47,698 bases of DNA from Rhodovulum steppense (GTDB lineage Bacteria > Pseudomonadota > Alphaproteobacteria > Rhodobacterales > Rhodobacteraceae), in NCBI RefSeq assembly GCF_004339675.1, contig NZ_SLVM01000027.1, positions 1 through 47,698 of the forward strand. Reading direction: 5' to 3'. A program made the position numbers and the translations under genes. The notes below the pieces were generated by a model that saw only the letters and a program-made list of their open reading frames with translations, had not been told where the DNA came from and made no database searches. The first letter of the stretch is position 1. The number at the start of each line of letters is the position of its first letter. Shown piece after piece: positions 1 through 29,100 of the stretch.

Positions 1-34
1 CCCCGACGAACTCCGTCAGGGGCAAGGTTCCACA

Positions 35-95
35 TGGGTCAAATCTCAATGACAATTCCGACTGCCGCTGGGTCAGTTCTCAGTGACATCCAACA
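35..95. repeat. Two imperfect direct repeats resembling an IS21-family end
   Basis: Two related units starting TGGGTCA and sharing a TCTCA(A/G)TGACA core lie at 35-59 and 69-91, with a 34-bp period. Multiple internal repeats of this GGGTCA...TGACA type are typical of the ends of IS21-family elements. The sequence at 92-95 is AACA, compatible with the TG...CA ends of that family. No transposase gene is in the window, so the family assignment rests on repeat style only. If correct, the element lies to the left and its end is near 95. Confidence 0.45.
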
Positions 96-273
96 CGCCG
101 AGGGACTTCAGCGCCTCGCCGGACGTAAACGTATTGATGATCGCGAACGAGTGCGCACCGGAGGCACGGTTTTCGGCAAGCCGCGCGCGCGCGGTGGATG
201 CAACGTCCGTCAATGCAGCGAGAGTATCCTTGGATATTCGCGCGACATCATCCCTCTGGCCCGGCTCAGTCAT
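73..273 (-). pseudogene. Small ORF downstream of NurA, probably 3'-truncated by the IS end
   Basis: This 66-residue ORF lies 39 bp downstream of the NurA-like gene, on the same strand. It has a good ribosome binding site (GAGGGG six bases before ATG), so it is probably the fourth gene of the cassette. I recognise no domain; the sequence is mildly charged and helical with no signal peptide. Its last residues (LDVTEN) and stop are read from the IS21-like repeat at 69-95. The native reading frame therefore probably continued further and was cut by the insertion. What remains may be inactive. It could alternatively be a complete small protein whose stop happens to fall in the repeat. Confidence 0.5.
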
Positions 274-312
274 ATTCCCCTCAATGCTTGTTCTCCTGGT
301 GTGCCTCTCTCG

Positions 313-1725
313 TCAGATCCCAATGATGGACCTCACGAACATGTCTAGCGTTCGGCCCGCGGGTCTGTGAGAAATCGATGCACAACGGTGAGCAAGGTGC
401 TGGACAATGTTGGCGTCGGCATACAGTTCAGTCTCGAAGAGTTCGAGGACCCCGATCGCCCGGCCAATGTCATCTTGATAGTAACTTAGTTCTACTTTGC
501 GATCCTGGAAGCCGGTGGCCTTCACAGGGAAAGGATACGCTAAATTCAGTTCGAAGATCCTATCGTTAGCGCTCCTTACAAGAAATGCCTGGCCGTAGTG
601 GGTATCGTTCCCAAAATTTGAGTCTGCATCCTTGGCTCCGAGATCGACGTAGCGATACCGATATGGGTCGCTCATAGGTAAGAGAAGCGTCCGGCCCTTT
701 GGAAAGTGTTCAAGCAGCATTGGCTGAATTAGCTTTCCGTGATCTACAACGCGTCCACTTTTCGTTACACCCATGATCAAGGGGGGCGTGCCGACAGACC
801 TTTCACGGACTCCATGAAGCATTCTCATGATGGGCCGATGTAAGCGTGCTGGTTCACCAAAAATTCCTAGAGGACCATCAACCAGGAACACGGCGCCATC
901 CAAAATGGCGCGCGTATGTTCCGAAGCGTCTAGCCTCATGATAGTGTGCGCGAGTATGAGGTGCTCCAGCACATTCATTGCTCTAGTGTATGCCTGCTGA
1001 TTGCTGCCTTCCTCGGCGAAGGCTTCTGACAATCGCAATACATCTGTCAAGAAAAGAGGTCTGTTTCCCGCGCGTGGCGACACCGCAAAGCCGATATCCT
1101 CGGGAATAAAAACATCCACCCCTAACAGCTCTCCCGTAATTGGACACCGCCGGTTCGAAGGGACAACCACATGGCGCTTTCCATCCTTTAGCCGCGTCTC
1201 CCCAGAGATTTCGAGAAGGTCTACGAGCGTCTTATCGAGGCCCTCGTCCAAGAGTTCAAAACGTGACGACCTAAACGCCTCAAACGTTGATCTCCTGAAG
1301 CTCTCTCTTGGACCTTCATTGTCTAGATAAATGCCGGCTCCGGTGAGTGGGACTGAATATGTGTTTTTCTCTTTTTCAAGCTTCGCAATAACAATAGGGT
1401 CTGGGTCGCCTCCAGACCGCGGGTCGATTTTGTGATAGGCTTTCGTGTCAATCCAGACCTGACCAATCTTGAGCAATCCCATGCGAGCGCTTGGGAAGCC
1501 GTCGGAGACCGATGCCTCGTAGTTTGATCCATCGGCAGCAATGACATAGCCGCGCTCCGGGCGCTTGACCTGATCGGTAACGTCCACAACCGCAGACAGG
1601 ATTTCCTGTTGGTAGGCCACCGGATCGACATGATGTCTGCATCGGCCAAAAAGCGCTCGGACCTCCAAGTCCTTCATAATGTCCTCCGCACCAAGAGATG
1701 ACGGAGTTTCTTTCGCGAATGGCAT
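313..1725 (-). CDS. NurA-domain nuclease
   Basis: A 470-residue protein with the layout of NurA nucleases, Mn-dependent DNA exo/endonucleases that work with HerA at DNA ends. The N-terminal strand carries the hallmark ADGS (D65-G66-S67) for metal binding. A second hydrophobic strand ending in VDGPLG (D283) matches the family's internal acidic motif. It is followed by a GVTKSGR segment and a C-terminal YPFP region resembling the family's late conserved block. It is longer than most archaeal NurA proteins, with extra sequence around residues 180-250. The ATG overlaps the HerA stop by one base (TAATG), so translation is probably coupled and the two proteins likely form a complex. Base composition is lower in GC than in regions 2-4. 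The function is inferred from family and gene pairing; a strand-specific or RNA-guided role cannot be read here. Confidence 0.75.
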   Translation of the reverse strand: MPFAKETPSSLGAEDIMKDLEVRALFGRCRHHVDPVAYQQEILSAVVDVTDQVKRPERGYVIAADGSNYEASVSDGFPSARMGLLKIGQVWIDTKAYHKIDPRSGGDPDPIVIAKLEKEKNTYSVPLTGAGIYLDNEGPRESFRRSTFEAFRSSRFELLDEGLDKTLVDLLEISGETRLKDGKRHVVVPSNRRCPITGELLGVDVFIPEDIGFAVSPRAGNRPLFLTDVLRLSEAFAEEGSNQQAYTRAMNVLEHLILAHTIMRLDASEHTRAILDGAVFLVDGPLGIFGEPARLHRPIMRMLHGVRERSVGTPPLIMGVTKSGRVVDHGKLIQPMLLEHFPKGRTLLLPMSDPYRYRYVDLGAKDADSNFGNDTHYGQAFLVRSANDRIFELNLAYPFPVKATGFQDRKVELSYYQDDIGRAIGVLELFETELYADANIVQHLAHRCASISHRPAGRTLDMFVRSIIGI

Positions 1726-3947
1726 TATTCATGCTCCAGGTCGGGCAGAGGCCTAAACCAGTCGTTGTTGGGAATTGCCTTGACCCTTTGGAACTCTTCA
1801 CGAACCGCATCTGGCTCGAACTTCAAAATCTGCGTTGGCGTCACAAAGTTGGCCGACAGTGTTTTAATTCTCGCAAAACCAACATCCTGACTCCTTTTGA
1901 GGCCAGCGCCAAAGTCAGCAAAATCATAGAAGCCGGAAAGAGCTCTTATCTCATTGTCATTGTTAAGGTGCGTTACGAAGAAGTTCTCAGTATTGGCGAG
2001 GATGTTCGGGTGAATCGAGCTGGGCTCCTGAGTCGCATATACCAAAGCGATCCCATATTTCGCTCCCTCCTTCGCGATGCGCGGCCAAATCTCTGTCAAC
2101 TCCGCCTTCTTGCCGATTAGATTATGGGCCTCCTCAACGTAGATTACGATGCGGGGCGGACGTTCGCCCCGGTTGAACCGCCCGCTGCTCTCACGAAAAA
2201 GATCTTGGACGAGGTTCCGAGACAGTTCTTCTCGGATCGAAGGGCTTCCGACTGAGAGATCCAAGATGACAATCCTGCCCTTTTTCAAGAGCGCACATAT
2301 GTCCTGTGCTATTTCACCCGATCCGTTCGGCCCGTGATATTCGCGTGCCGCGCCGATGGCCTGTCGCCCTGCTATCGGCGCGTCGTTGACCGAGGACCTT
2401 CCAACAAGCACACTCAACAGGCTGCGTTCCGTCTCATCGAGCCAAGGAGAGCCAGGAGCATTTCTAGTTGGTTGTTTGCTCAAGATGCCGTCGGTATCGC
2501 TGGTGTATCCACCTGCAGCGCGTTCAATTTCGCGGACTGACCTCCAGAGGCGCGTTACATCTTCCAGTGAGCCAACGACCTCACTTCCCGCCTCCCGAAG
2601 ATTGAAGTACGTGCGGCAGGCATCAGCGAGTTCATCTTCAGTGGCATTGGCGTCAAGATCCCCAAGGCGAGATTGATCCAGCTTGTTGGTCCCGATGCCC
2701 TTACGCATCAGATCAGCCTGAACTTTTTTGCCCATAGTGAAGCGCTGCTGCCGCGCATTCGCGGCATCAGGTACGTATTGGGCAGTAAATAGGATGCTCC
2801 GGATGATTGACACCTTCTTGTGCCAGCGGACGGATGCCGATCGATCTGACTGAGATGGGCGCTCCAGGTTGAGTGAGAGAAAGGATCTAAAGTCACCGCT
2901 GCTGGCCACGTGCCCCTGTTCTTCCGCGGCATACCTGATCAGGTCCATTGCGATCGTTAGATCATCATAGAAATTCGAACGGAGGTCGCGAAAACCAGGG
3001 GTATCCTTAATCCGGTACCGAACAGTCAGGTCCGGGAAAACATCATTGATTGCACTGCCCGCATCCTGCTCGTTTGCATTGGAGTACTCGCCGTTTATGT
3101 CGAAGATCAATTGCCCGATAGGCTGATGGGTCTGAAAGGCTGTTGTCGCTACCTGCGACACCATCGTTTTTGTCGTGTTCGACTTGCCGGTTCGTGTCAT
3201 TCCAAACACAGCTGTCCGCCGCGCAAGAAAATCGACCGGTGAGATGTAGACTGGTACCTTTGTGCTACCGCCTCGCTCGGCCATGTGTTGCGTGGACGTG
3301 TAGCGAACAGTACCGATTTGGAACGGAACTGGAACTCCGACGCCAGCAGCTTTGGCCTCATCTTCGGCGTTCTTTACCCGGTCTGGATCTACGTAATTGA
3401 CGATCTTCTCAAGCGCGGTAGGAGTAGGTTTGTAGACCCGCATCATTCGAGTCGCAAAGATGTCTTCGATATCGGTACCCATGCGCAGCTTGCTGTCTTG
3501 ACCGACGAAAAATGTGCCGAGTATGTGGCCGCGCATTCCCGACCAACTCATCCGGTTCACGGTGATCGGTTCGAGTCCCTCAAGCCTGCCCGTCCTTACG
3601 TCGGGATTTTCCTGAAAGAACTGCGTAATTGCTCTGAGATGCTCAGAGTCAGTCTCTATCGGTGCGCGTCCTGTCACGCGAAGCAAGATTACCCTCCGAT
3701 CGACCGGTGGCGTGGTCGCGAATGCCGAAGGATCGAAGGTTGCCGCAAGCAGATAGGAGTTGTGCGGTATCCCCTCCACGTCGTTTCGCCAACGGTCGTG
3801 TACCATCACAAGCGCTTCGTTGTAGTCCATCGAAAGGGTGAAGCCGATACGTCGGCTATCTTGCGCTTGCGGATTCGAGGGATCGCCTACGACTAGTCCC
3901 ACGAGTGGGGAGGTTGCCGCTGTCGCACGCTCGATAATACTATTCAT
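1725..3947 (-). CDS. HerA-type ATPase/DNA translocase
   Basis: A 740-residue FtsK/HerA-superfamily ATPase. After an N-terminal barrel-like region (about 1-170), the protein has a Walker A motif GMTRTGKS (249-256), then a Walker B IVIYVEEAH (600-608). A downstream ATQEPSSIHPNIL segment is typical of HerA sensor regions. A long helical insertion sits between the two nucleotide motifs. HerA proteins form hexamers that thread DNA and feed a partner nuclease; the partner here is the coupled NurA-like gene. The frame is open to a TTG at 3959. The ATG at 3947 is preferred because GGAG lies six bases before it, and the upstream TTG overlaps that ribosome site. It lies 62 bp downstream of the methylase gene on the same strand. 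In bacteria, HerA ATPases often sit in defence islands with Sir2, DUF4297 or nuclease partners. Confidence 0.85.
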   Translation of the reverse strand: MNSIIERATAATSPLVGLVVGDPSNPQAQDSRRIGFTLSMDYNEALVMVHDRWRNDVEGIPHNSYLLAATFDPSAFATTPPVDRRVILLRVTGRAPIETDSEHLRAITQFFQENPDVRTGRLEGLEPITVNRMSWSGMRGHILGTFFVGQDSKLRMGTDIEDIFATRMMRVYKPTPTALEKIVNYVDPDRVKNAEDEAKAAGVGVPVPFQIGTVRYTSTQHMAERGGSTKVPVYISPVDFLARRTAVFGMTRTGKSNTTKTMVSQVATTAFQTHQPIGQLIFDINGEYSNANEQDAGSAINDVFPDLTVRYRIKDTPGFRDLRSNFYDDLTIAMDLIRYAAEEQGHVASSGDFRSFLSLNLERPSQSDRSASVRWHKKVSIIRSILFTAQYVPDAANARQQRFTMGKKVQADLMRKGIGTNKLDQSRLGDLDANATEDELADACRTYFNLREAGSEVVGSLEDVTRLWRSVREIERAAGGYTSDTDGILSKQPTRNAPGSPWLDETERSLLSVLVGRSSVNDAPIAGRQAIGAAREYHGPNGSGEIAQDICALLKKGRIVILDLSVGSPSIREELSRNLVQDLFRESSGRFNRGERPPRIVIYVEEAHNLIGKKAELTEIWPRIAKEGAKYGIALVYATQEPSSIHPNILANTENFFVTHLNNDNEIRALSGFYDFADFGAGLKRSQDVGFARIKTLSANFVTPTQILKFEPDAVREEFQRVKAIPNNDWFRPLPDLEHE

Positions 3948-4009
3948 GTTCAGCTCCAATCTCTTTGCATTGCATCGGCCCCCAGCATGAAATGCATGGA
4001 TCTTCCATG

Positions 4010-5053
4010 TTAGGGCCGCGCGATGGCGTCTAGTCTTGCGCTCGGCTCGACTGTGACTTGGGCCGCTTCACCACTATGCGCTTCACTTGTCGGACCTGGG
4101 TCACCGAAAGCGTCCTCAGTCGAGATGTCGGTTTGCTGTGCGAAGTTATGGGCGGTAACCTCCTTTGAGGAGATATCATCGATCATCGATTTCTTGTTGG
4201 CTGTGTAGCGCATATCAGCAAGCGCGTATCCTGGGAGGCTTCGTAGCGATGCTCGAGCTTCAGGGCAGTTGTCGTATGACAAGAACCACCTACCGGGGAC
4301 AGACGCTAGATGCTCCTTCAGAGCTCGGTGATCGTCATCGGCGAACCACATCCTGTAGAGCCGGTCAGCCTTGTGAAAGAAAGGTGGGTCAAGGTACCAG
4401 AAGTCATTTGGAACAATAGCTCGGCGCGTGGCAGCTGCCCTGTATGAAGCGATAAGCCGGCGGAAGTCCGTGTTCTTAACCGAAACGCGGTGCGACAGAC
4501 GTGAAAGCTCCCAGATTCTTTCCGCCAATGCATACCGATTGTAGCGACATCCAATCTTGTATTCTGACTTCTGCGCCATGCCGCCTATTGGACCGGCAGT
4601 TGCGCTTAAAGCGCCTGAAAAAGATGTTCTATTTAAAAATAGGCACTTGAAAGCACGTTCTATTTGGTCTTGCGGGGCATTGGATCGCAGTCGTATCCAT
4701 TCATCGACTGAAACCTCAGCATCCAGCACTCGGTCTGCAAGCTCGCCAGCGCGAGACGAGAAAACTGTTGCCCAAAAGTCCGCAACGAGCGGGTCCAAAT
4801 CAGAAATTACCGCACGGTCAGCAACTCTGGCTTCAAGAAACGCTATTGTTACGGAGGCTCCACCCACAAAGGGTTCAAAGATCCTATCGAAGTGGTTCAG
4901 GCCGTGACAATCCATTTTCATAGCAATTCGTGCGGCGAGTTTGCGCTTGCCGCCAGGATACCTTAATGGACTTAGATAGTATTTTTGCAGTGCCTTACGT
5001 ACTCGAGCCTCTGCACTGCTCGAAGCACCGGCCGCGCTAACTCTTCTTGACAT
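4010..5053 (-). CDS. D12-class (Dam-like) DNA adenine N6-methyltransferase
   Basis: A 347-residue protein with motifs of the D12 class of N6-adenine methylases in order: YPGGK (32-36), the SAM-binding FEPFVGG (59-65), acidic DLDP (85-88), LNRTSFSG (140-147) and catalytic DPPF (222-225; DPPY in Dam). The C-terminal 50 or so residues are polar and not part of the catalytic fold. Target sequence cannot be read from the protein. The frame extends to a TTG at 5095, but ATG 5053 is more plausible and keeps the conserved start region. It is the first gene of the methylase-HerA-NurA cassette, 62 bp upstream of HerA. No cognate restriction endonuclease is seen, so HerA-NurA is the candidate effector, with the methylase marking self DNA. 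An orphan phage-type methylase is the alternative. Confidence 0.88.
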   Translation of the reverse strand: MSRRVSAAGASSSAEARVRKALQKYYLSPLRYPGGKRKLAARIAMKMDCHGLNHFDRIFEPFVGGASVTIAFLEARVADRAVISDLDPLVADFWATVFSSRAGELADRVLDAEVSVDEWIRLRSNAPQDQIERAFKCLFLNRTSFSGALSATAGPIGGMAQKSEYKIGCRYNRYALAERIWELSRLSHRVSVKNTDFRRLIASYRAAATRRAIVPNDFWYLDPPFFHKADRLYRMWFADDDHRALKEHLASVPGRWFLSYDNCPEARASLRSLPGYALADMRYTANKKSMIDDISSKEVTAHNFAQQTDISTEDAFGDPGPTSEAHSGEAAQVTVEPSARLDAIARP

Positions 5054-5122
5054 TGCCTGATGTAACCTCTCTCGCTTTAGACCATTGCGCGGCAAAGCTC
5101 ATAAATCAAGGGGTTGGAACTA

Positions 5123-5566
5123 TCAGAGGCACAAATTCTGTGGCTCTGCAGCGGTGGGACTTCGATGAGCGCCGCGCTTTTGGCCTGAGAATTCGTCCCT
5201 CTGCATCGTCCAGCTGAGCGGGAACGGCTCAAACACCTGCGCAAGCGTCACCTCCGGCCCCTGCTTCCCGTTCAGGATCGCCTCGATGACGTGGGGCGCG
5301 AGCAGCGTCAGCCGCAGGACGCGTGCCATGTAGGTGAAGGCGATACCCTCGCGCTCAGCAAGTTCGGCGATAGTAGCAAACTCGCCCGATTCCAGCATCC
5401 GTTTCCAGCGAAACGCCCGGGCCAGCGCCTTGACCAGCGCGTTGTCCGCCTGGCGCGGCAGCGCGTTGCCTTCCGGCAACCGCATTTCCTTCCGCCCGCC
5501 GCGCTTCACGATCCGGAACGGGACGTGGAGCGTCACTGTGTCTGGAACCTGCGCTTGCCGGCTCAT
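5123..5566 (-). CDS. Conserved small protein encoded downstream of the serine recombinase
   Basis: A 147-residue basic protein overlapping the recombinase stop by four bases (ATGA). Its central part (about 45-120) has the look of a ParB/KorB-like helix-turn-helix: LARAFRWKRML, then IAELAEREGIAFTYMARVLRLTLL, given here only as segments because the annotation is structural. Proteins of this kind commonly follow DUF2924-associated recombinases in alphaproteobacterial elements and may help the recombinase bind DNA or set its direction; that role is inference. The last 20-25 residues are unlike the rest and coincide with the change to lower-GC cargo DNA. The original C-terminus may therefore have been replaced at the cargo junction. 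Confidence 0.7.
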   Translation of the reverse strand: MSRQAQVPDTVTLHVPFRIVKRGGRKEMRLPEGNALPRQADNALVKALARAFRWKRMLESGEFATIAELAEREGIAFTYMARVLRLTLLAPHVIEAILNGKQGPEVTLAQVFEPFPLSWTMQRDEFSGQKRGAHRSPTAAEPQNLCL

Positions 5567-6888
5567 GCCGCCTGCCCCATCTCGCCGCCCACCATCTCGC
5601 GTGCGAGGCCGCCGAGGCCATCGACGCGCAGGCGCACGTTCAGGCCCTCCGTGCCGATGTCCACGCGCTCGACCAACAGCGCCACGATGCGCGCCTGCTC
5701 GGCGGGGAACAGTTCGTCCCACAGCGGGTCAAGCTGCTGCAACGCCGCGTGCGCATCGGCCTCGGTGAAATCGCAGTCTTTCGCGCGTGCCGCCTTCCAC
5801 GTTCCCGCGACGATCTCTGGCTGGCGGAACACGGCGCGCAGCTGATCGATGACGGCGGCCTCGATCTCCCCCGCAGGCACGCGGCCGACCGGGCATGATC
5901 CGGCGCCATGCTTCAGCACGGTCTGGCTGACATAGTAGCGGTAGAGCCTGTCGCCCTTGCGGGTGTGTGTCGGCGAGAACGCCGCGCCATCGGGGCCGAA
6001 CAGCAGCCCCTTCAGCAGCGCGGGCGTGTCGGCGCGGGTGCGCGCGGCTCGCTTGCGCGGGCTTTCCTGCAAGATGGCGTGGACGCGGTCCCACGTCTCG
6101 CGGTCGATGATCGCTTCGTGCTCGCCGGGATAGCTATCGCCCTTGTGGACAGCCTCCCCGATGTAGGCGCGATTGCTGAGCATCCGGTAGATGTATTTCT
6201 TGTCGATCCGGTTGCCGCGCGGCGTGCGGATGCCGCGCGCGCCGACCTCCCGCGCCAGTTCGGTGCAGGACCCGATCTCGAGGAAGCGGGCGAAGATCCA
6301 GCGCACATGGTCGGCGCTTTCCTCGTCGGCTACCAGCTTCCGGTTCTCGACCCGGTAGCCGTACGGCGGTACCCCGCCCATCCACATGCCCTTTTTCCGG
6401 CTGGCGGCGACCTTGTCGCGGATGCGCTCGGCGGTAACCTCGCGCTCGAATTGGGCGAACGACAGCAGGATGTTCAGCGTCAGCCGCCCCATCGAGGTAG
6501 TCGTGTTGAACGACTGCGTGACCGAGACGAACGTCACGCCGTTCCTGTCGAACACCTCGACCAGCTTGGCGAAATCCGCCAGCGACCGGCTCAGACGGTC
6601 AATCTTGTAGACCACGACCACATCGACCAGACCGTCCTCGATATCCTCCAGCAGCCGCTTCAAGCCGGGGCGCTCCAGTGTGCCGCCCGAGATGCCGCCG
6701 TCGTCATACTGATCGCGGACCAGCACCCAGCCCTCGGAACGCTGGCTGGCGATGTAGGCCTCGCAGGCCTCTCGCTGGGCGTGGAGGCTGTTGAACTCCT
6801 GCTCCAACCCTTCCTCGGAGGATTTCCGGGTGTAGACCGCGCAGCGCAGCTTGCGGACGACCTTCGATTTTTCCGGCGGCTTCGTCAT
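5563..6888 (-). CDS. Large serine recombinase (resolvase/invertase family)
   Basis: A 441-residue site-specific recombinase. The N-terminal catalytic domain has the AVYTRKSS motif with nucleophile Ser23, the family's YDDGGISGGTLERPG segment (61-75) and the arginine-rich IDRLSRS (96-102). A recombinase domain with PPYGYR follows. The C-terminal DNA-binding half has the LYRYYV segment, but the usual zinc-ribbon cysteine pairs are mostly absent. It is expected to cut and join att sites through a 5'-phosphoserine link and so mobilise this element. ATG 6888 is chosen because AGGGGG precedes it at good spacing and it overlaps the DUF2924 stop as ATGA; an extended upstream reading frame lacks homology. 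It is the third gene of a four-gene coupled operon. Its att site was not identified. Confidence 0.93.
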   Translation of the reverse strand: MTKPPEKSKVVRKLRCAVYTRKSSEEGLEQEFNSLHAQREACEAYIASQRSEGWVLVRDQYDDGGISGGTLERPGLKRLLEDIEDGLVDVVVVYKIDRLSRSLADFAKLVEVFDRNGVTFVSVTQSFNTTTSMGRLTLNILLSFAQFEREVTAERIRDKVAASRKKGMWMGGVPPYGYRVENRKLVADEESADHVRWIFARFLEIGSCTELAREVGARGIRTPRGNRIDKKYIYRMLSNRAYIGEAVHKGDSYPGEHEAIIDRETWDRVHAILQESPRKRAARTRADTPALLKGLLFGPDGAAFSPTHTRKGDRLYRYYVSQTVLKHGAGSCPVGRVPAGEIEAAVIDQLRAVFRQPEIVAGTWKAARAKDCDFTEADAHAALQQLDPLWDELFPAEQARIVALLVERVDIGTEGLNVRLRVDGLGGLAREMVGGEMGQAA

Positions 6889-7340
6889 GTCCGCCCCCTG
6901 TGGTTCTTCAGCCCGAAGAAGGTCCACCCGTTCCAACGCGTGCCGGTGATGGCGCGCGCGATGGCGGACAGCGACTTGTACGGCCGACCTTGCCACTCGA
7001 AGCCGTCGGCGGTGACGGTTACGATCTGTTCGACGCCCTGCCATTCACGCAGGAGGCGCGTGCCGGTGATGGGGCGGTCGCGATCGGCGCGGATGCCGCG
7101 CTTGGATCGGTCGCCGCCGTCCAGTTCTTCGCCGAGCCGCTCCAGCAGCCGGATCGTCTCCGGCTTCAGTCCGCCATAGGCGAGTTCCTGGATGCGGTAG
7201 GCCAGGCGGGACTCGAGGTAGCGGCGATTGAACGGCGGCGGCTCGCTGTCGAACAGGTCGCGCCACTGCTTTTTCAGGTCAGGCGTCGGCGTGGTCTTGA
7301 GCGCGGCGAGGCGCGCGGGGATGGGATCGGGCTTGTTCAT
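6885..7340 (-). CDS. DUF2924 domain protein
   Basis: A 151-residue basic protein matching DUF2924. It has the KKQWRDLFDSEPPPFNR segment near the N-terminus, LAYRIQELAYGGL in the middle, and the C-terminal FEWQGRPYKSLSAIAR followed by TGTRWNGWTFFGL. This family is found almost exclusively next to serine recombinases in alphaproteobacterial phages and integrative elements. It is generally taken to be an accessory DNA-binding protein, but its biochemical role is not established. ATG 7340 has GGAG six bases upstream and overlaps the preceding gene's stop (ATGA). Its own stop overlaps the recombinase start in the same way, which argues for stoichiometric co-expression. Confidence 0.9.
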   Translation of the reverse strand: MNKPDPIPARLAALKTTPTPDLKKQWRDLFDSEPPPFNRRYLESRLAYRIQELAYGGLKPETIRLLERLGEELDGGDRSKRGIRADRDRPITGTRLLREWQGVEQIVTVTADGFEWQGRPYKSLSAIARAITGTRWNGWTFFGLKNHRGRT

Positions 7341-7561
7341 GCATTTCTCCGGTGCGTTGGAGTTGCATGACGGCATTGGTCGGGCGGATAGTGTAGGCAA
7401 CGTTCTCCAGTATCGTCAGATACTTCGTCCCCATCGCGCATCCGCAGCCGAACCAGCCCGAGCGCCAGCAGGCCGCACAGCTCAGTACGGCGTTCTGCGG
7501 GCGTCATCGCCGAGGGGGCGAGCGGGTTGGGGCGACGAATGGGACCGGGATCGAAAATCAT
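7337..7561 (-). CDS. Small conserved protein heading the recombinase operon
   Basis: A 74-residue protein starting MIFDPGPIRRPN, with an internal helical stretch (TPAERRTELCGLLALGLVRLR, residues about 20-40) and a histidine/cysteine-containing tail. Similar short proteins precede DUF2924 genes in related elements. No function is known. ATG 7561 is the only in-frame ATG with a family-like N-terminus, although its ribosome site (TGGA, close spacing) is weak. The stop overlaps the DUF2924 start by four bases. Being first in the operon, it could be an autoregulator or excision-control protein; this is a guess from position only. Confidence 0.6.
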   Translation of the reverse strand: MIFDPGPIRRPNPLAPSAMTPAERRTELCGLLALGLVRLRMRDGDEVSDDTGERCLHYPPDQCRHATPTHRRNA

Positions 7562-7643
7562 GATCCATCGGTGCCGGATTGCGCCGCCGGCCGCGACCTC
7601 GGAACGGGTCAGCCCGCGACCGACAGGAAAGGGTGAACCCCTT

Positions 7644-7659
7644 AGGTGTTGCAACACCT
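7644..7659. promoter_or_regulatory. Perfect 16-bp palindrome in the divergent promoter region
   Basis: AGGTGTTGCAACACCT is a perfect palindrome in the 167-bp gap between the divergent recombinase operon (starts 7561) and the 237-aa gene (starts 7729). Its size and position fit an operator for a dimeric repressor that controls both directions. No known regulator family can be assigned from the sequence. Confidence 0.5.
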
Positions 7660-7728
7660 TGGTGGGTTGAGGGCTCAGGGCGTTCCCATTATGTTCGAAC
7701 TGTCCCCAATCGATTCACGAGGCCGCCC

Positions 7729-8442
7729 ATGTCGCTGCAAACGCTCGATCGCACGCAATGGAGTTTTGCAGAGGCGTTTGCCCATGTGCAGAACGTGACG
7801 GTCGCGCGGCGCGCGGTTGAGGCGGCCAAGCTGCCGCCGAAGCCTGTGCCGGAATACCAGACCTGGAACCCGCCGCAGGACCCCAAAGTGGCCTGGAAGG
7901 CGGAGGCGGAGACCGAGTTGCTCGTCGCGCTGCGAGACGGGGATCTTCTGGCGCAGGGGCGCTTCACCGAGGAGCGAACCCATGGCTGGGGCAACGGCGG
8001 CAGTAGTAGCGGTTTCGGTCTGCATTCGGGCTATCACACCAGCATCCGCCCGGAGCAGTGGCGCGAGGGAAAGTATTCGTTCGGGCGACTGACCGCGCGG
8101 GACTGGGAGTTCATCGACATCCGCGTGGCGCGTTTCCTCGTGAAGGCGATCTGGCCGGATTACATCCCGGAGCCGGTGCGACCCGCGCAAGGCGCGGCAG
8201 ATGCGATTTACACCACGCCCTATCTCAAGCTGATGCAGACGGCGATTGCACATTTCGGGATTTCACCGGGGAACCAGGGCAAGAAGGAATGCCTGATGGA
8301 CTGGTTTCTCGAGCAGCAGATCGAGGGCGAGCCTGTGTCGAACAAGCTGGCCGACGCCATGGCCACGCTGATCCGGCTGCCGTCGGCACAGCGCGGCGGC
8401 GCGAAGCGGGTGCTGGGGCCCGATCTGCGCCAGACCGGATAG
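7729..8442 (+). CDS. Conserved hypothetical protein of the element
   Basis: A 237-residue soluble protein, starting at an ATG with GAGG eight bases upstream. I do not recognise a named domain. It contains a tryptophan-rich N-terminal third (WNPPQDPKVAWKAEAE, about 45-60), a glycine/serine-rich loop with HGWGNGGSSSG (about 85-95) and a C-terminal helical part ending near residue 237. There is no signal peptide or membrane segment. It is divergently transcribed from the recombinase operon and followed by a strong hairpin at 8462. Position suggests a role in maintenance or transfer of the element. The sequence itself gives no catalytic motif. Confidence 0.75.
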   Translation: MSLQTLDRTQWSFAEAFAHVQNVTVARRAVEAAKLPPKPVPEYQTWNPPQDPKVAWKAEAETELLVALRDGDLLAQGRFTEERTHGWGNGGSSSGFGLHSGYHTSIRPEQWREGKYSFGRLTARDWEFIDIRVARFLVKAIWPDYIPEPVRPAQGAADAIYTTPYLKLMQTAIAHFGISPGNQGKKECLMDWFLEQQIEGEPVSNKLADAMATLIRLPSAQRGGAKRVLGPDLRQTG

Positions 8443-8930
8443 GATCGGCGAAGGCGCCGGCAATCGCGTTGTTGGGGACAACGCGATTACGACGGCGGCT
8501 GGCTCTGGCCCGTGCCTTTACCATTGCCCTCGATACCCCTGTTGCAAATGCGGCTCCGGACGCTGGGCGTCTCGATGAAGGGCGGAACCGTTCACCCCGT
8601 TCGCGCGGACGAGGGGTCACCCCTCTGATCGGCCGCGGCCGCTGAGGGCGCTCCACAGGGGTCGCTAGGCTCGTTGGGGTCCACCCATGAACTGACGTTA
8701 TTTCAACGCCTTGCCGGAAGGGGTTACCCCTTTCCGGAGCGATGGCCCGTGGCCGGCCAGACCGGTTCCGAGGTCGCGAGGGTGGTCTGATGCGCGGCAG
8801 AACCGGGGGCAACGACGCCCCTATCCGGTTCTGCAGCCCCCGTGTCCGCCCGTCTTCGCCAACTCTCGCACCAAGCCGCCGCGGCTCCTTTGCCGACCGG
8901 CGTGCATGCGCCCATCCCGCGGGGGCGGCG
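8443..8930. other. 488-bp intergenic stretch with palindromes
   Basis: No convincing gene lies between the 237-aa gene and the primase-helicase. The stretch holds a perfect 11-bp inverted repeat (8462-8472 with 8478-8488, loop TGGGG) and two similar palindromes: GAGGGGTCACCCCTC at 8611-8625 and AAGGGGTTACCCCTT at 8718-8732. A related but imperfect version lies at 7629-7643. It probably contains the promoter and control region of the downstream operon. A reading frame extending upstream from 8931 exists but is arginine-rich and has no family resemblance. Confidence 0.5.
8462..8488. repeat. Hairpin with 11-bp perfect stem and GGGGACA core
   Basis: AATCGCGTTGT at 8462-8472 pairs with ACAACGCGATT at 8478-8488 around a TGGGG loop, 20 bp after the upstream stop codon. 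There is no following T-run, so it is not a standard intrinsic terminator. The GGGGACA core recurs in the palindrome at 12026-12073, so the two may be REP-like elements. Confidence 0.5.
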
Positions 8931-11900
8931 ATGAGCGGGCGGGACTGGCGGGCCTTCGACGCCGAGCTGCGTGCCCGCGTGCCGGAACTCGCGGTGGAGC
9001 TTCTGGGCAAGCCGACCTTCTGCGCGGGGCAGGAATGGCGCTGGGGCCGCAAGGGCAGCCTCTCGGTCGTCGTCAGCGGCGCGCGGGCGGGGATGTGGTT
9101 CGACCACGAGGAGGGCCGGGGCGGCTGGTTCTCGGATCTCGTCGGCCGCGACCTCGGCATGGCCCGCGAGGATGCGACCGACTGGATCGCGGACCGGATC
9201 GGCATGGGCGCCCGTCACCGCCCGGTGCGCCAGCGTCCGGCACCTCGGGAAATGCCGGCGAACGATCCGGGCGAGCCGCCTTCGGCACCGGGCACAGAAA
9301 GTTCCGAGGCGCGCGTCGATCACGATGGCGACGCTGCGCCAAACCAGGCGGACGAGGCCGCCGCGCGCGCAGCCCGGATCTGGTCTGGCGCGCGTCCCGC
9401 CCCGGAGCACTATCCCTATCTGGTCGCCAAGCAGGCCGCGCCTCTCGCCCTGCGCATGGACGCGAGCCGCCGCCTAGTCGTGCCATTGCAGGACATCGGC
9501 GGCCGGATCCACAGTCTGGAGACCATCGCACCGGACGGGGCCAAGCGCTACCTGGCCGGTGGGGTCAAGAAGGAGCATTTCGCGGTGGTGGGCGCCGAGC
9601 CCGCGCCGCTCGAGGAATGCACCGGCCCCATCCTGATCTGCGAGGGTTGGGCGACCGGCGCCAGCCTGCGCATCGCCACAGGCCATACCGTGATCGCGGC
9701 GATGGACGCGGGCAACCTGATGCCGGTCGCCGAGGCGCTGCGGGCTCGGTTCCCCGAGGCCGATCTTGTCCTCGTCGCTGACAACGACCTGAAGCCCGAC
9801 CGCGATGGAAATCCCGGTGTCGAGGCGGCGCGGAAGGTGGCCCTCGCCGTCGACGGTCGCCTCGCAGTGTCAGTCGGCCCGGGCGATGCCAACGACCTCT
9901 TCTGCTCCGAGAGGCCGGAGGCCGTTGCCGCGCTCGTCGCCGGCGCGGCCCGGATCCCGCCGCCACCGCCAACCTATCCGGAACCGATCCTCACGCCCGA
10001 GGAGGCCCGCGCCAGCCTGGCCGAGGCCATCGCCGGCTTCATGGCCGCGATCCCGGATTACTGGGCCGCCGTCGAGGCGGCGCAGGAAGAGGCCAGGAAC
10101 ACCAACGCCAACCGCGATCCGCTGGATTTCAACATCGTGGCGCGGGCGGCCTTGTCGCCGCTCCTCGGCCTGCCGGTCGACGTGGGCCTCGGCAAGACCT
10201 CGAGCGCGCGTGCCGCCATAGCGGAGCTGATCGCCGGGGGCGGGATCGGCAAGCGCAAGGTCGTCTATGCCGTCCCGCGGCACGATCTCGGCGCGGAGCA
10301 GGTCTCGGCCTTCGGGGCGTTGGGCCTCAACGCCATGCTCTGGAAAGGCCGCACCGCGCCCGATCCCAGCGACGACAAACCCGACCAACTCATGTGCCTC
10401 GACACCGAGGCGACCTTCGACGCGCTCGAGATTGAGCATCCGGTCGAGCAGAGCTGCTGCAAGGTCAAGAACGGGGCCGAACTGCTGCTCTGCCCCTGGT
10501 TTCACGACTGCGGCTACCAGAGCCAGAAGCCGCTGGCGCAGGCGGCGCAGGTCATCGTCTGCGCCCATGACAGCCTCTTTCACATGAAGCCGCAGGCCAT
10601 CGGCGAGGTCGGGCTTCTGGTCATCGACGAGGGGTTCTGGCAGTCGGGCCTGCGCGGGCTCGACGGCAAGGCGACGCTGACACAGGACGGTTTGGAGCCC
10701 GGCCGCACCTCGCTCACCTGCTACACCGGCAAGGGCAAGATGGATGTCGGCGCCACGGCCGACCTGATCGCCGCGCGGGAGCGGCTCTGCAAGGCGCTGC
10801 GGGTCACCGAACCCGGTCCTCTGCGCCTCGGCCTGCTGGAGGCCGTGGGTCTCACCCCGGAGGACTGCCGTCATGCCGCGACGCTGGAACGTCGCCGCAT
10901 GCGCGATGCCGGGCTCCTGCCGGGCATGTCGCCGGTCGAGCGGCGCAAGCGGATCGAGGCAGTCCTGCCGCAAATGGGCGAGCCATGGGCGCCGCCCGGG
11001 CGTTGCGCCACGCTCTGGCTGATCCTCGCCGAGGCGCTGGAGAACGGCCATGACGCCGCCGGCGCCGAGCTCGTGCACGAGATGACCGAGGCCGGCTCGG
11101 TCCGCGCCCTGCGCCTGCGCTGGCGCAGCCGCATGCGGACCGGCTGGGCGGCCCAGGCTCCGATCCTGCATCTCGACGCGACACTGCGCCCGGAACTTGT
11201 CGAGACCTACCTGCCAAGAATCGATATCGGCACGCCCGTCGCCGCGCGCCAGCCCCATGTCCGCGTCCGCCAGGTCACCGGCAGCCCGACCTCGGCACGC
11301 GCCCTGACGCCTTCAGCCGACGCGCCCGAGCGGGACCGCAAGGCCGCCGCGACCCGTCTGCGTGACCTCCGCGCCTGGATCGACCTCCGCGCCCGCCAGT
11401 GCCATCGCCCCGGCCATGCCATCGATCTGCTCGTGGTGGGCCAGAAGGCCGCCATCGACGCGCTCCGGTCGGCCGGCCTGCCGTCGCGGGTCGAGGCGGT
11501 GCATTTCAACGCGCTGAGCGGTCTCGACCGCTGGGGCGGCATCGGAGGCATGGTGATCCTCGGCCGCACGCTGCCAGCGCCTCGCACGGTCGAACTGATC
11601 GCGATGGCGCTGACCGGACGGATGCCCGCACCGAACCCGCAGGACGCCGGCTGGTGGTATCCGATGGTCGAGCGTCGAGTCCGGCTTGCCGGCGACCGGA
11701 CCGCGCCGCTCGCGACGGAGGAACACGCCGATCCCATCGCCGAGGCCGTGCGCTGGAGCATCTGCGAGGGCGAGCTGATCCAAGCCATGGGCCGCGGGCG
11801 CGGCGTCAATCGCACCGCCGCCACGCCGCTCGAGATCGACCTGCTCACGGATGTGGTTCTGCCGGTGACCGTCGACGCGCTCGTGCCGTGGTCCGACCTG

Positions 11901-12422
11901 CGCCCGACCCGGCGCGACCTGATGGCGCTCACCGGCATCGTGCTCGAGAACGCGGCCGACATGGCAGTGTGCTTTCCGGAGCTCTGGGCAACCCGCGAAG
12001 CCGCCAAGAAGGACGGCCAGAGGAAGGGGACAAATGACTATTATAGGGATCTCTATAATAGCAGAATGTCCCCATCCTCTGCGGAGGTGACCTGGCGCCC
12101 GGAAGGCGCCGGCCATCGCGCCCGCACCGCCCGCGTCGATCTCTCCCGCATTCCCGATCCGGAAGCCTGGCTCACCAACCGCCTCGGGCCGCTCGCCAGC
12201 TTCGAGATGCGGTCGATCGCGGGCGCCAGATCCGACGCACCCGATCTCACTGAGGCGGCACGCCTCGACACCCTCTCATCCCGCCTGACCGCCAGCATGC
12301 AGGCCGTGCTCGCCGCGCGACGTGCGGCCCTCGACGCGCTGTCTGTCCGGCTGGAGGCCGCGAAGCCCGACGCCCAGCGACACCCCCATCACCCCCAACC
12401 AGAAGAGGAGACCGAGGCATGA
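8931..12422 (+). CDS. Toprim-type primase fused to a P-loop helicase-like domain
   Basis: A 1163-residue protein. Residues 1-95 resemble the N-terminal region of TraC-like plasmid primases (CAGQEWRWGRKGSL, then WFDHEEGRGG). A Toprim domain spans about 232-330: catalytic Glu238 in ICEGW and metal-binding Asp284/Asp286 in VADND. The second part has a Walker A-like VGLGKTS (418-424), a cysteine cluster CC-x10-C-x5-C (509-527) and a Walker B LLVIDEG (Asp566-Glu567). It then continues for 600 residues with arginine-rich helicase-like segments. The likely job is priming and unwinding during replication or conjugative transfer of the element. ATG 8931 follows a GGGG ribosome site. The stop overlaps the next gene as ATGA. 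A 48-bp AT-rich palindrome lies in frame at 12026-12073. The helicase assignment of the C-terminal half rests on the two nucleotide motifs. Confidence 0.8.
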   Translation: MSGRDWRAFDAELRARVPELAVELLGKPTFCAGQEWRWGRKGSLSVVVSGARAGMWFDHEEGRGGWFSDLVGRDLGMAREDATDWIADRIGMGARHRPVRQRPAPREMPANDPGEPPSAPGTESSEARVDHDGDAAPNQADEAAARAARIWSGARPAPEHYPYLVAKQAAPLALRMDASRRLVVPLQDIGGRIHSLETIAPDGAKRYLAGGVKKEHFAVVGAEPAPLEECTGPILICEGWATGASLRIATGHTVIAAMDAGNLMPVAEALRARFPEADLVLVADNDLKPDRDGNPGVEAARKVALAVDGRLAVSVGPGDANDLFCSERPEAVAALVAGAARIPPPPPTYPEPILTPEEARASLAEAIAGFMAAIPDYWAAVEAAQEEARNTNANRDPLDFNIVARAALSPLLGLPVDVGLGKTSSARAAIAELIAGGGIGKRKVVYAVPRHDLGAEQVSAFGALGLNAMLWKGRTAPDPSDDKPDQLMCLDTEATFDALEIEHPVEQSCCKVKNGAELLLCPWFHDCGYQSQKPLAQAAQVIVCAHDSLFHMKPQAIGEVGLLVIDEGFWQSGLRGLDGKATLTQDGLEPGRTSLTCYTGKGKMDVGATADLIAARERLCKALRVTEPGPLRLGLLEAVGLTPEDCRHAATLERRRMRDAGLLPGMSPVERRKRIEAVLPQMGEPWAPPGRCATLWLILAEALENGHDAAGAELVHEMTEAGSVRALRLRWRSRMRTGWAAQAPILHLDATLRPELVETYLPRIDIGTPVAARQPHVRVRQVTGSPTSARALTPSADAPERDRKAAATRLRDLRAWIDLRARQCHRPGHAIDLLVVGQKAAIDALRSAGLPSRVEAVHFNALSGLDRWGGIGGMVILGRTLPAPRTVELIAMALTGRMPAPNPQDAGWWYPMVERRVRLAGDRTAPLATEEHADPIAEAVRWSICEGELIQAMGRGRGVNRTAATPLEIDLLTDVVLPVTVDALVPWSDLRPTRRDLMALTGIVLENAADMAVCFPELWATREAAKKDGQRKGTNDYYRDLYNSRMSPSSAEVTWRPEGAGHRARTARVDLSRIPDPEAWLTNRLGPLASFEMRSIAGARSDAPDLTEAARLDTLSSRLTASMQAVLAARRAALDALSVRLEAAKPDAQRHPHHPQPEEETEA
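12026..12073. repeat. 48-bp AT-rich bipartite palindrome inside the primase-helicase gene
   Basis: Outer arms GGGGACA (12026-12032) and TGTCCCC (12067-12073) enclose inner arms CTATTATAG (12038-12046) and CTATAATAG (12053-12061), with loop GGATCT. Both stems are perfect. The element is strikingly AT-rich in a GC-rich gene. Its length is a multiple of three, so the reading frame passes through it and adds a tyrosine- and asparagine-rich stretch. Confidence 0.7.
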
Positions 12423-12946
12423 GTTACGACAGGATGCGCCTCTACGACGCCGGCCGCTTCCACGATACCGAGCTGCCCGACTGGTATCACGATGCCGAGC
12501 GGCTGAGCGAGACCGAACGCATCGACTTCCACCGGGCGCTCGAGCGCGTCCTCGATTGCGAGCACACGCTCCTGACCGAGGAGGGCATGCTGGGCGGCAC
12601 GCTCGAGATCCGGTTCTGGCCAAGCGAGATCCATGGCGTCTTCGTGCTGATCGAAACGCCGCTCTCCTTCGTCGAGCATGTCATTCTCCCGAACCCCGCC
12701 GACTGGCTGCCGTTCCTCTCGCGCCATCTCGCGCCCCTCATAGCGGTCTCGCACCAGAGTTCCCTGATCGCGCTGCACGGCAAGATCGGCAACGCCTTCA
12801 TAGCCTGGGCGCGCCATGGCGAAGGCAGTCATGTCGATCGCGACACCGGCCTCAGCCGCATCGATTTCGACAACGACCGCGACCGTCGCCGGGCCCAGCA
12901 GGCCCGAGCAGCCATGGAACGGGCGAGGCAGGTGGGCCGTACATGA
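12419..12946 (+). CDS. Conserved hypothetical protein downstream of primase-helicase
   Basis: A 175-residue acidic protein that begins at an ATGA overlap with the primase-helicase stop and ends in an ATGA overlap with the next gene. No named domain is recognised. The N-terminus (MSYDRMRLYDAGRFHDTELP) is polar and the middle is hydrophobic (about 80-120). The C-terminus is arginine-rich and helical, with no signal peptide or clear membrane span. Tight coupling on both sides suggests that it is made together with the replication protein and acts in the same process. Confidence 0.7.
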   Translation: MSYDRMRLYDAGRFHDTELPDWYHDAERLSETERIDFHRALERVLDCEHTLLTEEGMLGGTLEIRFWPSEIHGVFVLIETPLSFVEHVILPNPADWLPFLSRHLAPLIAVSHQSSLIALHGKIGNAFIAWARHGEGSHVDRDTGLSRIDFDNDRDRRRAQQARAAMERARQVGRT

Positions 12947-13152
12947 AGACGATGCGCTGGCATCCTCCGGGCTATGGAGGCGAGCGCCGGGACCCCGACC
13001 GTGTGAAACGCGACGGTTGGCGCGATCAGGGCGTGCTGGCCATCTCCATTGACGACGAGCGGCTTAGCTGGCCGGAGCGGGAACTGGTCCGTCAGCTGGG
13101 CGATAAGCTGTATGGTCCGCGACACCGCGAACCCGAGGCGCCGGACCCGTGA
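12943..13152 (+). CDS. Small conserved hypothetical protein (69 aa)
   Basis: A 69-residue charged protein starting MKTMRWHPPGYGGERRD and ending in a proline-rich tail. Its ATG overlaps the stop of the 175-aa gene (ATGA), which is the main support for it being a real gene. A longer in-frame extension upstream has no credible start. No domain is recognised. It is the last gene of the operon and is followed within 13 bp by a strong hairpin at 13165-13192. Confidence 0.65.
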   Translation: MKTMRWHPPGYGGERRDPDRVKRDGWRDQGVLAISIDDERLSWPERELVRQLGDKLYGPRHREPEAPDP

Positions 13153-13164
13153 CCGGACTCTCTA

Positions 13165-13192
13165 TGGACCCCGGACTCCGCACCGGGGTCCA
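13165..13192 (+). terminator. 10-bp perfect hairpin after the primase operon
   Basis: TGGACCCCGG (13165-13174) pairs with CCGGGGTCCA (13183-13192) across an 8-base loop, directly after the stop at 13152. There is no T-tract, so it may be a processing or pause site rather than a classical intrinsic terminator. Confidence 0.4.
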
Positions 13193-13504
13193 CGTGGGGT
13201 CCAGGGCCTGCCCGGGGAGTTTCTGGTTCCTTTCCGGGCACTTGCGTATACGGGAGGGCACAGCGCGGCGCATCGCCAGCGACAGGACCGGTTTTTTGGG
13301 AAGCCACCCCGGAACCCGGAGTCCGGCTGATGGCGAGAAGAACCAATGATCATTGGCGTTCGAGCGGACGGGAAAGTGGATTCCACGGTGGATCCGGAAT
13401 CCGACTGGAGTCCGGTGGATACGATCTTCGCGGAGTCCACCTTTGGGAAAGCAGAATAGAATCCCACATGATGCCACGATGCGTTACCGTCGGACCGTGG
13501 ACGC
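13193..13504. other. Intergenic stretch without a convincing gene
   Basis: About 310 bp between the primase operon and the methyltransferase. Short GGAGTCC/GGTCCA-like motifs recur (for example around 13310-13320 and 13380-13445), hinting at decayed or repeated sequence. I see no gene, no clear promoter and no tRNA. Confidence 0.4.
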
Positions 13505-14143
13505 ATGCACACGATGGCAGGCGGACAGGAGCATTGGGACGGGGTCTACGGCGCGAGGTCGGAAGACGAACTGACCTGGTTCGAGGCCACGCCAGCCCTG
13601 TCGCTCGAACTCGTTCGCGCGCATCTGCGGCCGCGTGAACCGTTCATCGACATCGGCTCCGGCGCGTCCCGGCTCGTCGACGCGTTGCTCGATGAAGGGT
13701 TCGGACCTCTCGCGGTGCTGGACCTCTCCGCGGCCGCCCTGGCCGTCAGCCGGCAGCGGCTCGGCCCAAAGGCCGACGACGTTTCGTGGATCGAGGCGGA
13801 CATCACGACGTGGACGCCCGACCGGGACTACGCGGTCTGGCACGACCGGGCGGTGTTCCATTTCCTGACCACAGCCGAGGATCGCGCCGGGTATGCTCGT
13901 GCCCTGTCCGTTGCCCTGCGCCCGGGCGGGATCGCGATCATCGCGACGTTTGCCGATGACGGGCCGGAGATGTGCTCGGGCCTGCCGGTAGTGCGCTATG
14001 CGCCAGAGGCGCTGGCGCAGGAACTCGACCGACTGCTTCCGGGCCGGTTCGAGACGCTCGATGCCAGACGCCACATGCACATCACGCCGAAGGGCAACCG
14101 GCAGAGTTTCCAGTACAGCGTGTTCCGCAAGACGGACCGTTGA
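13505..14143 (+). CDS. Class I SAM-dependent methyltransferase
   Basis: A 212-residue protein of the Rossmann-fold methyltransferase class. The opening EHWDGVYGARSEDELTWFE segment is typical of a family of small cytosolic methyltransferases. Motif I is FIDIGSGASRL (about residues 48-58) and the acidic loop is VLDLS (about 70-74). A HDRAVFHFL segment and a late LRPGGIAII strand complete the core. The substrate cannot be told; relatives act on small thiols, metalloids or unknown compounds. ATG 13505 and ATG 13514 are both possible and neither has a good ribosome site. It stands alone as cargo in the element and converges on the DUF3489 gene. Confidence 0.85.
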   Translation: MHTMAGGQEHWDGVYGARSEDELTWFEATPALSLELVRAHLRPREPFIDIGSGASRLVDALLDEGFGPLAVLDLSAAALAVSRQRLGPKADDVSWIEADITTWTPDRDYAVWHDRAVFHFLTTAEDRAGYARALSVALRPGGIAIIATFADDGPEMCSGLPVVRYAPEALAQELDRLLPGRFETLDARRHMHITPKGNRQSFQYSVFRKTDR

Positions 14144-14150
14144 GACGAGA

Positions 14151-14175
14151 GCCGCCGCCCTCTTGGGGCGGCGGC
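14151..14175. terminator. 10-bp GC hairpin between convergent genes
   Basis: GCCGCCGCCC (14151-14160) pairs perfectly with GGGCGGCGGC (14166-14175) across a TCTTG loop. It lies in the 57-bp gap between two convergent genes and could stop transcription from both sides, although neither side has a strong T-run. Confidence 0.5.
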
Positions 14176-14200
14176 ATTCAACGGGATGCCGTGCGCGGGG

Positions 14201-14773
14201 TCAGTCCTTTGCGATCATGTAGGCCCTGCCACGCCCTTCGATTTTCTCGGAGGTGATCGTCAGGCCCAGCTTCTTTTTCAGCGCGCCGGATATGGCGCCC
14301 CTAGCGGTGTGAGCTTGCCAGTCGAGTGCTGCTACGATTTCCTCGATGGTCGCGCCGTCCGGCGCGCGCAGCATGGCGATCAGCGTGGCCTGCTTGGTGC
14401 CCTCGCGCGGCGTGCGCGTCTTGGGCGCGGTCTCGGCCCCGGTGGGGGTATCAGGCGCGGGCTCATCGGTCGGCGCGCCCGTCGCGCCCGCAGGCGCGGG
14501 GTTCGCGTCATCGATCTCGATGCCGATGGCGGCGAGGCCTGCGTCGGTGGCGACCAGCGTGACGCCGTGGCCGTCGCCGGTCTCGCGCCAGACGGGCTCG
14601 CCGTTGCGCACGTCCGCGTCGACCTCATCGAGGAAGCCCTTGGCGAGCATCGCGCCGACCACCTTGGCGGCGGCCCCGCCGCACAGGCTCCCGGGCAGCG
14701 GCAGGGCGATGTGCTCGGGCCGCTGGGCGGCGGCGCTGAGGATGATGGCTTGGGTATCGGAAAGCTTGGTCAT
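14201..14773 (-). CDS. DUF3489 domain protein
   Basis: A 190-residue protein. The C-terminal 60 residues match DUF3489, a small winged-helix-like domain, seen as TKQATLIAMLRAPDGATIEE, ALDWQAHTARGAISGALKKK and the final GRGRAYMI. The N-terminal half (MTKLSDTQAIILSAAAQR) looks like a second helical DNA-binding region. A proline/alanine/threonine-rich linker (about 95-125) joins the two. DUF3489 proteins are frequent in alphaproteobacterial integrative elements and are presumed to bind DNA. ATG 14773 has GGAG eight bases upstream. The 90-aa gene 95 bp upstream on the same strand is probably co-transcribed. Confidence 0.88.
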   Translation of the reverse strand: MTKLSDTQAIILSAAAQRPEHIALPLPGSLCGGAAAKVVGAMLAKGFLDEVDADVRNGEPVWRETGDGHGVTLVATDAGLAAIGIEIDDANPAPAGATGAPTDEPAPDTPTGAETAPKTRTPREGTKQATLIAMLRAPDGATIEEIVAALDWQAHTARGAISGALKKKLGLTITSEKIEGRGRAYMIAKD

Positions 14774-14868
14774 GGGGTCGTCTCCGTATTCGGGCCCGCG
14801 AAATGCGGCGCCTTCTACGACCCCGAGCCGCGCAGGGCGCGCGGCAGGAGTTCTGGCTGGGCCGGAGA

Positions 14869-15141: not shown

Positions 15142-15252
15142 CGTGGTGGCTCCGTGGTGAGTTGCATCGTCCTCGTGGGATCACGTTCCCTCTGTCCGCG
15201 ACGCTTATCAACTCGATAAGGACATGATCTTGAATGATAATCGGAGCCGTCG

Positions 15253-15306: not shown

Positions 15307-15311
15307 GTTAG

Positions 15312-27257: not shown

Positions 27258-29100
<1,843 letters not shown>

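Follow-up and report, generated by a model that had tools for sequence, protein, structure and literature searches.

A DNA methylase gene beside a HerA-NurA pair: a putative restriction-like defence unit on mobile DNA of bacteria and an archaeon

What could a DNA methylase do together with a translocating ATPase and a nuclease when the three genes lie side by side? This question is raised by one end of contig NZ_SLVM01000027.1 of Rhodovulum steppense (assembly GCF_004339675.1), where a D12-class N6-adenine DNA methylase, a HerA-type translocase and a NurA-like nuclease are encoded; the stretch analysed, hereafter the window, is this entire contig (C27; 47,698 nucleotides) of a 3.66 Mb genome. 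We found that the methylase-HerA-NurA set is rare and that it recurs on mobile elements of bacteria and of a single archaeon. Sequence comparison suggests that the set is, rather probably, a defence unit resembling restriction-modification, in which an exchangeable methylase would mark self and HerA-NurA would destroy unmarked DNA. Its parts and its logic are already known, and the combination of a methylase with HerA-NurA appears to be new; no description of such a defence unit was found in the open-access literature, among the matches listed.

Recurrence on mobile DNA and exchange of methylases

In the window, whose readable sequence ends at base 1, the three intact open reading frames (ORFs) form a single minus-strand cluster at 313-5053, as follows.

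4010..5053, minus strand: D12-class N6-adenine DNA methylase of 347 amino acids (aa), ATG at 5053, PF02086 with E 2.7e-14
1725..3947, minus strand: HerA-type translocase of 740 aa, ATG at 3947 with TTG at 3959 also open, PF01935
313..1725, minus strand: diverged NurA-like nuclease of 470 aa, assigned via homologues

An earlier note on this DNA had described such a cluster in low-GC DNA beside a serine recombinase, and both points are borne out by a GC content of 53.3% in 313-5053 versus 65.5% in 5100-47698 and by the recombinase gene at 5563-7044, which is probably a mobility gene. The TAATG coupling reported there holds for the HerA and NurA ORFs, which have this motif in common (1-nt overlap), but not for the methylase and HerA, since the HerA ATG lies 62 nt after the methylase stop (50 nt if the TTG at 3959 is used). 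The span of 73..5053 given in the same note stands for 313-5053 and was shortened by 73-273, which holds a UvrD-like fragment outside the unit.

Relatives of NurA were drawn from plasmids, phages, genome contigs, viral contigs and whole genomes, and 16 complete NurA rows remained after removal of near copies (L016, a near copy of L013 with NurA in two frames, and L020, a near copy of L021) and of fragments (L008, L009, which is the same stretch as L017, and L012). A methylase directly adjoins the HerA-NurA pair in 11 of these 16 relatives, window included, and HerA is seen in 10 of those 11 loci, the record of L013 beginning at NurA. These loci lie in genomes of proteobacteria, in contigs from phages or viruses, on a megaplasmid of Deferribacter and on a plasmid of a haloarchaeon. 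Besides the window, the loci are arranged as follows.

L006, Sedimentimonas: D12-HerA-NurA
L014, viral contig: D12-HerA-NurA
L013, viral contig: NurA with a convergent D12 gene, and an integrase recognized by eye
L021, Vibrio phage: integrase-HerA-NurA with a convergent D12 gene
L018: N6_N4-HerA-NurA beside an integrase
L022, Deferribacter megaplasmid: methylase-HerA-NurA, with HerA broken by an IS200/IS605-TnpB insert
L005, Halorarius plasmid (archaeon): N6_N4 methylase beside HerA-NurA
L044, L045 and L046, class genomes: HerA-NurA-methylase

The last three come from a post-hoc test in which 385 genomes of the class were searched for NurA, and three of three new loci read HerA-NurA-methylase, with genes overlapping or at most 8 nt apart and the methylase overlapping NurA; they were found by the A5 profile at E 2.8e-47 or better, and we count them as members because this profile matches them. 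As a control, HerA loci with another partner were inspected on plasmids: SIR2 partners HerA in all six, and no annotated methylase lies within 4 kb (these six were hand-picked from listed rows of 62 plasmid HerA records outside HerA-NurA, i.e., 67 less H5-H9, and the plasmid gene table is incomplete). According to the earlier note, lack of conservation as a unit would refute its reading; the unit withstood this check, with 11 of 16 relatives against none of six SIR2-HerA plasmid loci. Further searches of viral contigs with the HerA profile or the L018 NurA gave nothing new, those with the L014 NurA gave its self-match only, and those with the A5 profile returned the four loci already found; comparison of L013 DNA with Escherichia coli genomes likewise gave nothing new.

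The mobile setting of these loci is indicated by their neighbours, namely a serine recombinase in the window and an integrase in L018, in L021 (by annotation) and in L013, as well as by the plasmids that carry the set. In L018, the 3′ end of a tRNA-Thr gene is repeated 9,447 bases on, at 17170-17193 (88% over 24 nt), and the stretch 7671-17193 contains an integrase, NurA, HerA, the N6_N4 methylase and an ORF without Pfam match (15594-16898). These repeats may bound a compact integrative element of ~9.4 kb; note that the repeat scan of L018 gave 25 repeat families in all and that a second integrase-like ORF lies beyond the span. Rarity is seen in the profile matches besides the own genome, which number 2 in 291 order, 0 in 397 phylum, 1 in 393 family and 3 in 384 class genomes (profiles A1, A1, A4 and A5, respectively), in draws that overlap and with narrow profiles that may miss diverged members.

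Methylases of two families, in several placements, accompany the pair. The methylase is of the D12 family in 6 of the 11 loci and of the N6_N4 family (PF01555) in 5, so that the label adenine methylase of the earlier note is not general, and the methylase gene is placed upstream, downstream or convergent. The PF01555 match and the SPPY motif stand in permuted order in L005, L022, L044 and L045 and in ordinary order in L018. On a tree of HerA plus NurA with 13 rows (L015 unlabelled, L013 and L022 left out, the latter being counted for adjacency and absent from the HerA tree), methylase type requires at least three changes, namely two D12/N6_N4 swaps and one loss, and placement requires at least three. 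Conversely, the D12 methylases linked to HerA-NurA were rejected as a single clade by the approximately unbiased (AU) test (11 rows, p 0.0086, the first tree having already been seen), and they interleave with phage relatives that lie beside PD-Lambda-5_A-type genes (L030, L032) or OLD/AriA-like ATPases (L029, L031). From the interleaved trees and the family changes, it would therefore appear that the nuclease pair swaps methylases and that the methylase family swaps partners. Such swapping fits what is expected of modification modules, within the limits of few rows and long branches.

Some phage relatives of the methylase deserve separate mention. In a Streptococcus phage (L029, 4211-6846) and a Citrobacter phage (L031, 4122-6810), a PD-Lambda-5_B-like methylase lies beside an OLD/AriA-like ATPase, with an integrase near the former pair and an excisionase near the latter; these are possibly another methylase-effector pair. 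In a Pseudomonas phage (L037, 4986-7257), an unannotated D12 methylase of the window family is convergent to the gene of a ParB-like (by eye) protein of 464 aa.

The three proteins

The window methylase displays the motifs YPGGK, EPFVGG and DPPF, could also start at a TTG at 5095 (+14 aa), and matches the PADLOC PD-Lambda-5_B model at E 9e-64. The HerA-type protein has the DUF87 domain (PF01935, E 3.7e-12), Walker A (GMTRTGKSN), Walker B and the sensor Q that define HerA, with the motifs EEAH and YATQE, and the alignments display the motifs in 10 rows and the invariant residues in 13. Its nearest solved relative is TdpA (8wet), with a phmmer E of 1.3e-24 over two aligned stretches, the next structure reaching 1.3e-12. 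As an observation on the Vibrio phages, which are near-identical, HerA is one gene in L021 (1309-3501) and two overlapping annotated pieces in L020 (1309-3502).

The label NurA-like of the earlier note is weak when taken from the window protein alone (12.5 bits against a Pfam cut-off of 21), and it is upheld through its full-length homologue in L014 (~30% identity), which scores 39 bits and covers profile positions 2-252 of 254. PF09376 is matched by 9 of 13 aligned NurA members at E <= 0.5, and D65, D228, D283, G284, L286 and K322 are invariant in 16 of 16 rows. We assign the window protein to NurA because of this full-length homologue and of the invariant acidic residues, and particular residues among the invariant ones are presumably catalytic. 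In 10 of 13 rows, 4-5 cysteines of zinc-ribbon type lie between motif I and motif II, where the window clade has a single Cys (window 1039-1173, residues 185-229). Comparison with solved structures gave no credible match for NurA. NurA is shown to be under selection by the comparison of the window with the Chelativorans copy (L007), with a nonsynonymous divergence (dN) of 0.061, a synonymous divergence (dS) of 1.16 and a dN/dS of 0.053; between the window and L006, dS is saturated for all three genes and the proportion of nonsynonymous differences (pN) is 0.154 to 0.335. Note that a tRNA-Pro called by ARAGORN inside the L006 NurA (3433-3522) is probably spurious.

As the earlier note had stated, no restriction enzyme accompanies the three genes: no site-specific restriction endonuclease was matched by Pfam, PADLOC or NCBIfam in the readable unit, and no type IIG enzyme was matched in window 1-5700, the far side being cut by the contig end in both cases. 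The PADLOC scan of the window covered the three proteins of the unit, and neither PADLOC nor Pfam nor NCBIfam matched a toxin or sensor family in them.

A proposed mechanism and its alternatives

That HerA forms a ring and that this ring pairs with NurA is established. We propose that the methylase would mark the DNA of the host and of the element, while the HerA ring would load on double-stranded DNA (dsDNA), pump it and feed it to NurA, which would destroy both strands; invader DNA without the mark would thus be degraded and marked DNA spared. The mark could act as a brake by stalling the loading or pumping of the ring, or by blocking an initiating cut made by an unseen factor. A retained and exchangeable methylase would fit this scheme because a dsDNA exonuclease would have to leave self DNA intact by some means, and gating of HerA-NurA by methylation fits the changes of methylase family on one HerA-NurA core. 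We infer, and do not observe, that the proteins form a complex, that unmarked DNA is degraded, that methylation is the brake and that the unit serves defence at all. In a more doubtful version, which we advance only tentatively, bacteria and archaea would practise restriction with no restriction enzyme at all: the HerA-NurA motor itself would read methylation while pumping, so that a methylated site would tell it to stop or release, whereas DNA lacking methylation would be shredded from its ends. Methylases of different families could then be plugged in, and methylase family and placement would change while the core stays, because the reader would be the motor and not a sequence-specific endonuclease.

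Several known systems come close to the unit. The HerA-NurA of Thermococcus kodakarensis, which belongs to the same two enzyme families, acts exonucleolytically on both dsDNA strands whatever the end, with a NurA D49A complex as inactive control; its authors propose an antiviral role, whereas archaeal HerA-NurA had been assigned to end resection, so that the role is disputed (PMC12977600). The stem 'methyl' is absent from the main text of that paper, and no methylase partner is described there (PMC12977600). The Tdp machinery (PDB 8wet, 8wfd and 8y1k) includes the HerA-like TdpA, to which, among solved proteins, the window HerA is closest. This machinery is reportedly modulated by DNA phosphorothioation, and TdpC is its phosphorothioation enzyme; the mark differs, since that of the window unit would be base methylation, made by a D12 or N6_N4 enzyme. 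The methylases of the window, L006, L014, L013 and L021 match the PADLOC PD-Lambda-5_B models best, whereas PD-Lambda-5_A is unmatched in the HerA or NurA of the window and of L014; PD-Lambda-5_A-type genes adjoin such methylases in L030 and L032, as two ORFs in L032. PD-Lambda-5 was protective against phages in tests (PMC9519451). SIR2-HerA and DUF4297-HerA likewise place a HerA-type ATPase in an operon with an effector enzyme, but in our unit NurA would be the effector and is joined by a DNA methylase, none being annotated at the six SIR2-HerA loci. In the HerA/FtsK capture described for DndH and its kin and for BREX-related systems, motors and nucleases, some with DNA-modifying enzymes, are predicted to counter invaders (PMC10853773, PMC12839542); the gene sets described differ from ours, and 'NurA' has no occurrence in the text of PMC10853773. 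Finally, as in restriction-modification, a methylase gene is coupled to nuclease genes in the window, with no site-specific endonuclease matched.

The strongest rival explanation is DNA donation or element mobility, in which HerA would pump DNA and NurA would trim it, either to be exported or to let the element transfer itself, the methylase being minor. It draws on ICETh1 of Thermus thermophilus, described as a 14-kb element in a tRNA gene, with an integrase and an operon that encodes the type IIG enzyme TthHB27I, a NurA-like protein, the HerA/FtsK protein TdtA and a PF01555 methylase of 410 aa (PMC5365140). There, the NurA-like protein and TdtA are needed for donation, as their loss lowers it by 4-5 orders and leaves no detectable transjugants, respectively (PMC5365140), and loss of the methylase has minor effects (PMC7767461). 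ICETh1 shares with our unit a HerA-type ATPase, a NurA-like nuclease and a methylase in one operon, on an element with an integrase, and differs by its type IIG enzyme, by its shown role in DNA donation and by protein sizes (377 aa for the NurA-like protein and 568 aa for TdtA, versus 435-470 and 653-741 aa here; PMC5365140). The two operons, likened by description and not by sequence, may be kin, and L018 resembles an ICETh1-type element in its ~9.4 kb, its integrase and its repeated tRNA-Thr end. In contrast, the unit also lies on plasmids and in two phage records labelled as complete genomes (near copies), a type IIG enzyme is unannotated beside L005, L021 and L022 (a profile search for type IIG was not made), and the methylase, minor in ICETh1, is retained in 11 of 16 relatives here. 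Defence is favoured over donation, which we consider unlikely, because of the unit's presence in phage genomes and of its retained methylase.

More improbable still is an abortive system, in which an invader signal would trigger HerA-NurA, any DNA would be degraded and the infected cell would die, the methylase tuning or restraining the nuclease; it finds precedent in SIR2+HerA and DUF4297+HerA, which are called abortive infection (Abi) systems (PMC12345140), and in PD-Lambda-5, which is described as a compacted prophage version of a restriction-modification plus Abi system (PMC9519451), but toxin and sensor families are unmatched in the three window proteins, as stated above. The least probable explanation, to which we give very little weight, is that HerA-NurA would be an end resection or repair pair serving the element or the host, and that the adjoining methylase would have nothing to do with it. 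The assignment of archaeal HerA-NurA to end resection (PMC12977600) and the cyanobacterial copies without adjoining methylase speak for it; the patchy occurrence in the genome draws counted above speaks against it, and a methylase that adjoins the pair in 11 of 16 relatives, comes from two families and takes three placements is hard to ascribe to chance.

Several observations also weigh against a self-marking defence unit, beginning with the shown role in DNA donation of the similar Thermus ICETh1 operon (PMC5365140). Five of the 16 relatives lack a counted methylase, namely three cyanobacterial plasmids (L002-L004), L007 and L015. The cyanobacterial plasmids, which represent one lineage, carry a helix-turn-helix (HTH) gene followed by HerA-NurA with no methylase adjoining (about 7686-11372); PF01555 and PF02086 match none of the three whole plasmids, and PF00145 matches one of the three, ~19 kb from HerA-NurA. 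L007 (Chelativorans) is a remnant with a complete NurA and the 3′ end of HerA only, and the contig of L015 stops 470 bases above HerA, its D12 gene, 2.1 kb away on the other strand, being uncounted as a very distant branch. In addition, the NurA proteins of L044 and L046 have no Pfam NurA match at E <= 0.01, the L045 NurA reaches 20.5 of 21 bits and the L044 HerA 23.1 of 23.2 bits, no model in PADLOC, NCBIfam or PHROGs matched the window NurA (the PADLOC miss bearing on a defence role), and the family changes are few (two swaps and one loss), the branches of the tree that shows them being long.

If the defence unit nevertheless acts as proposed, a nuclease that itself has no sequence specificity could be gated by self-marking. 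Both the dispute over HerA-NurA (resection versus antiviral degradation) and the sparing of self DNA could be addressed with this recurrent three-gene unit, which offers a compact test of the two.

Neighbourhood of the unit

Around the three genes, the window holds the following features.

1..95, no strand: terminal part of a repeat that by eye resembles an insertion sequence, with the same bases at five other contig ends
73..273, minus strand: N-terminal UvrD-like remnant of ~59 residues, broken by the repeat end, outside the unit
5563..7044, minus strand: large serine recombinase (PF00239 with E 9.8e-40, PF07508, PF13408)
6885..7400, minus strand: DUF2924 protein, upstream of the unit

The ORF at 73-273 was considered as a fourth gene and rejected, since it encodes the beginning of a UvrD-like protein that is cut at base 95; over 56 residues it is 41% identical with an Aminobacter protein of 897 aa. 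In L006, a dGTPase-like ORF comes after NurA. Promoter and terminator scans gave no signal above shuffles, and an Rfam scan of window 1-9000 gave nothing.

On the cyanobacterial plasmids, HTH-HerA-NurA is followed by AbiTii in L004, and L002 has a gene for an exonuclease/STAND-type ATPase downstream. The plus strand of the window encodes, close to the recombinase and DUF2924 genes, a 1226-aa protein with a Toprim_3 domain (8742-12422), which belongs perhaps to the same mobile island. Far from the unit, the plus strand carries at 27282-28688 a gene for an ATP synthase alpha/beta-family subunit (PF00006, E 3.4e-72).

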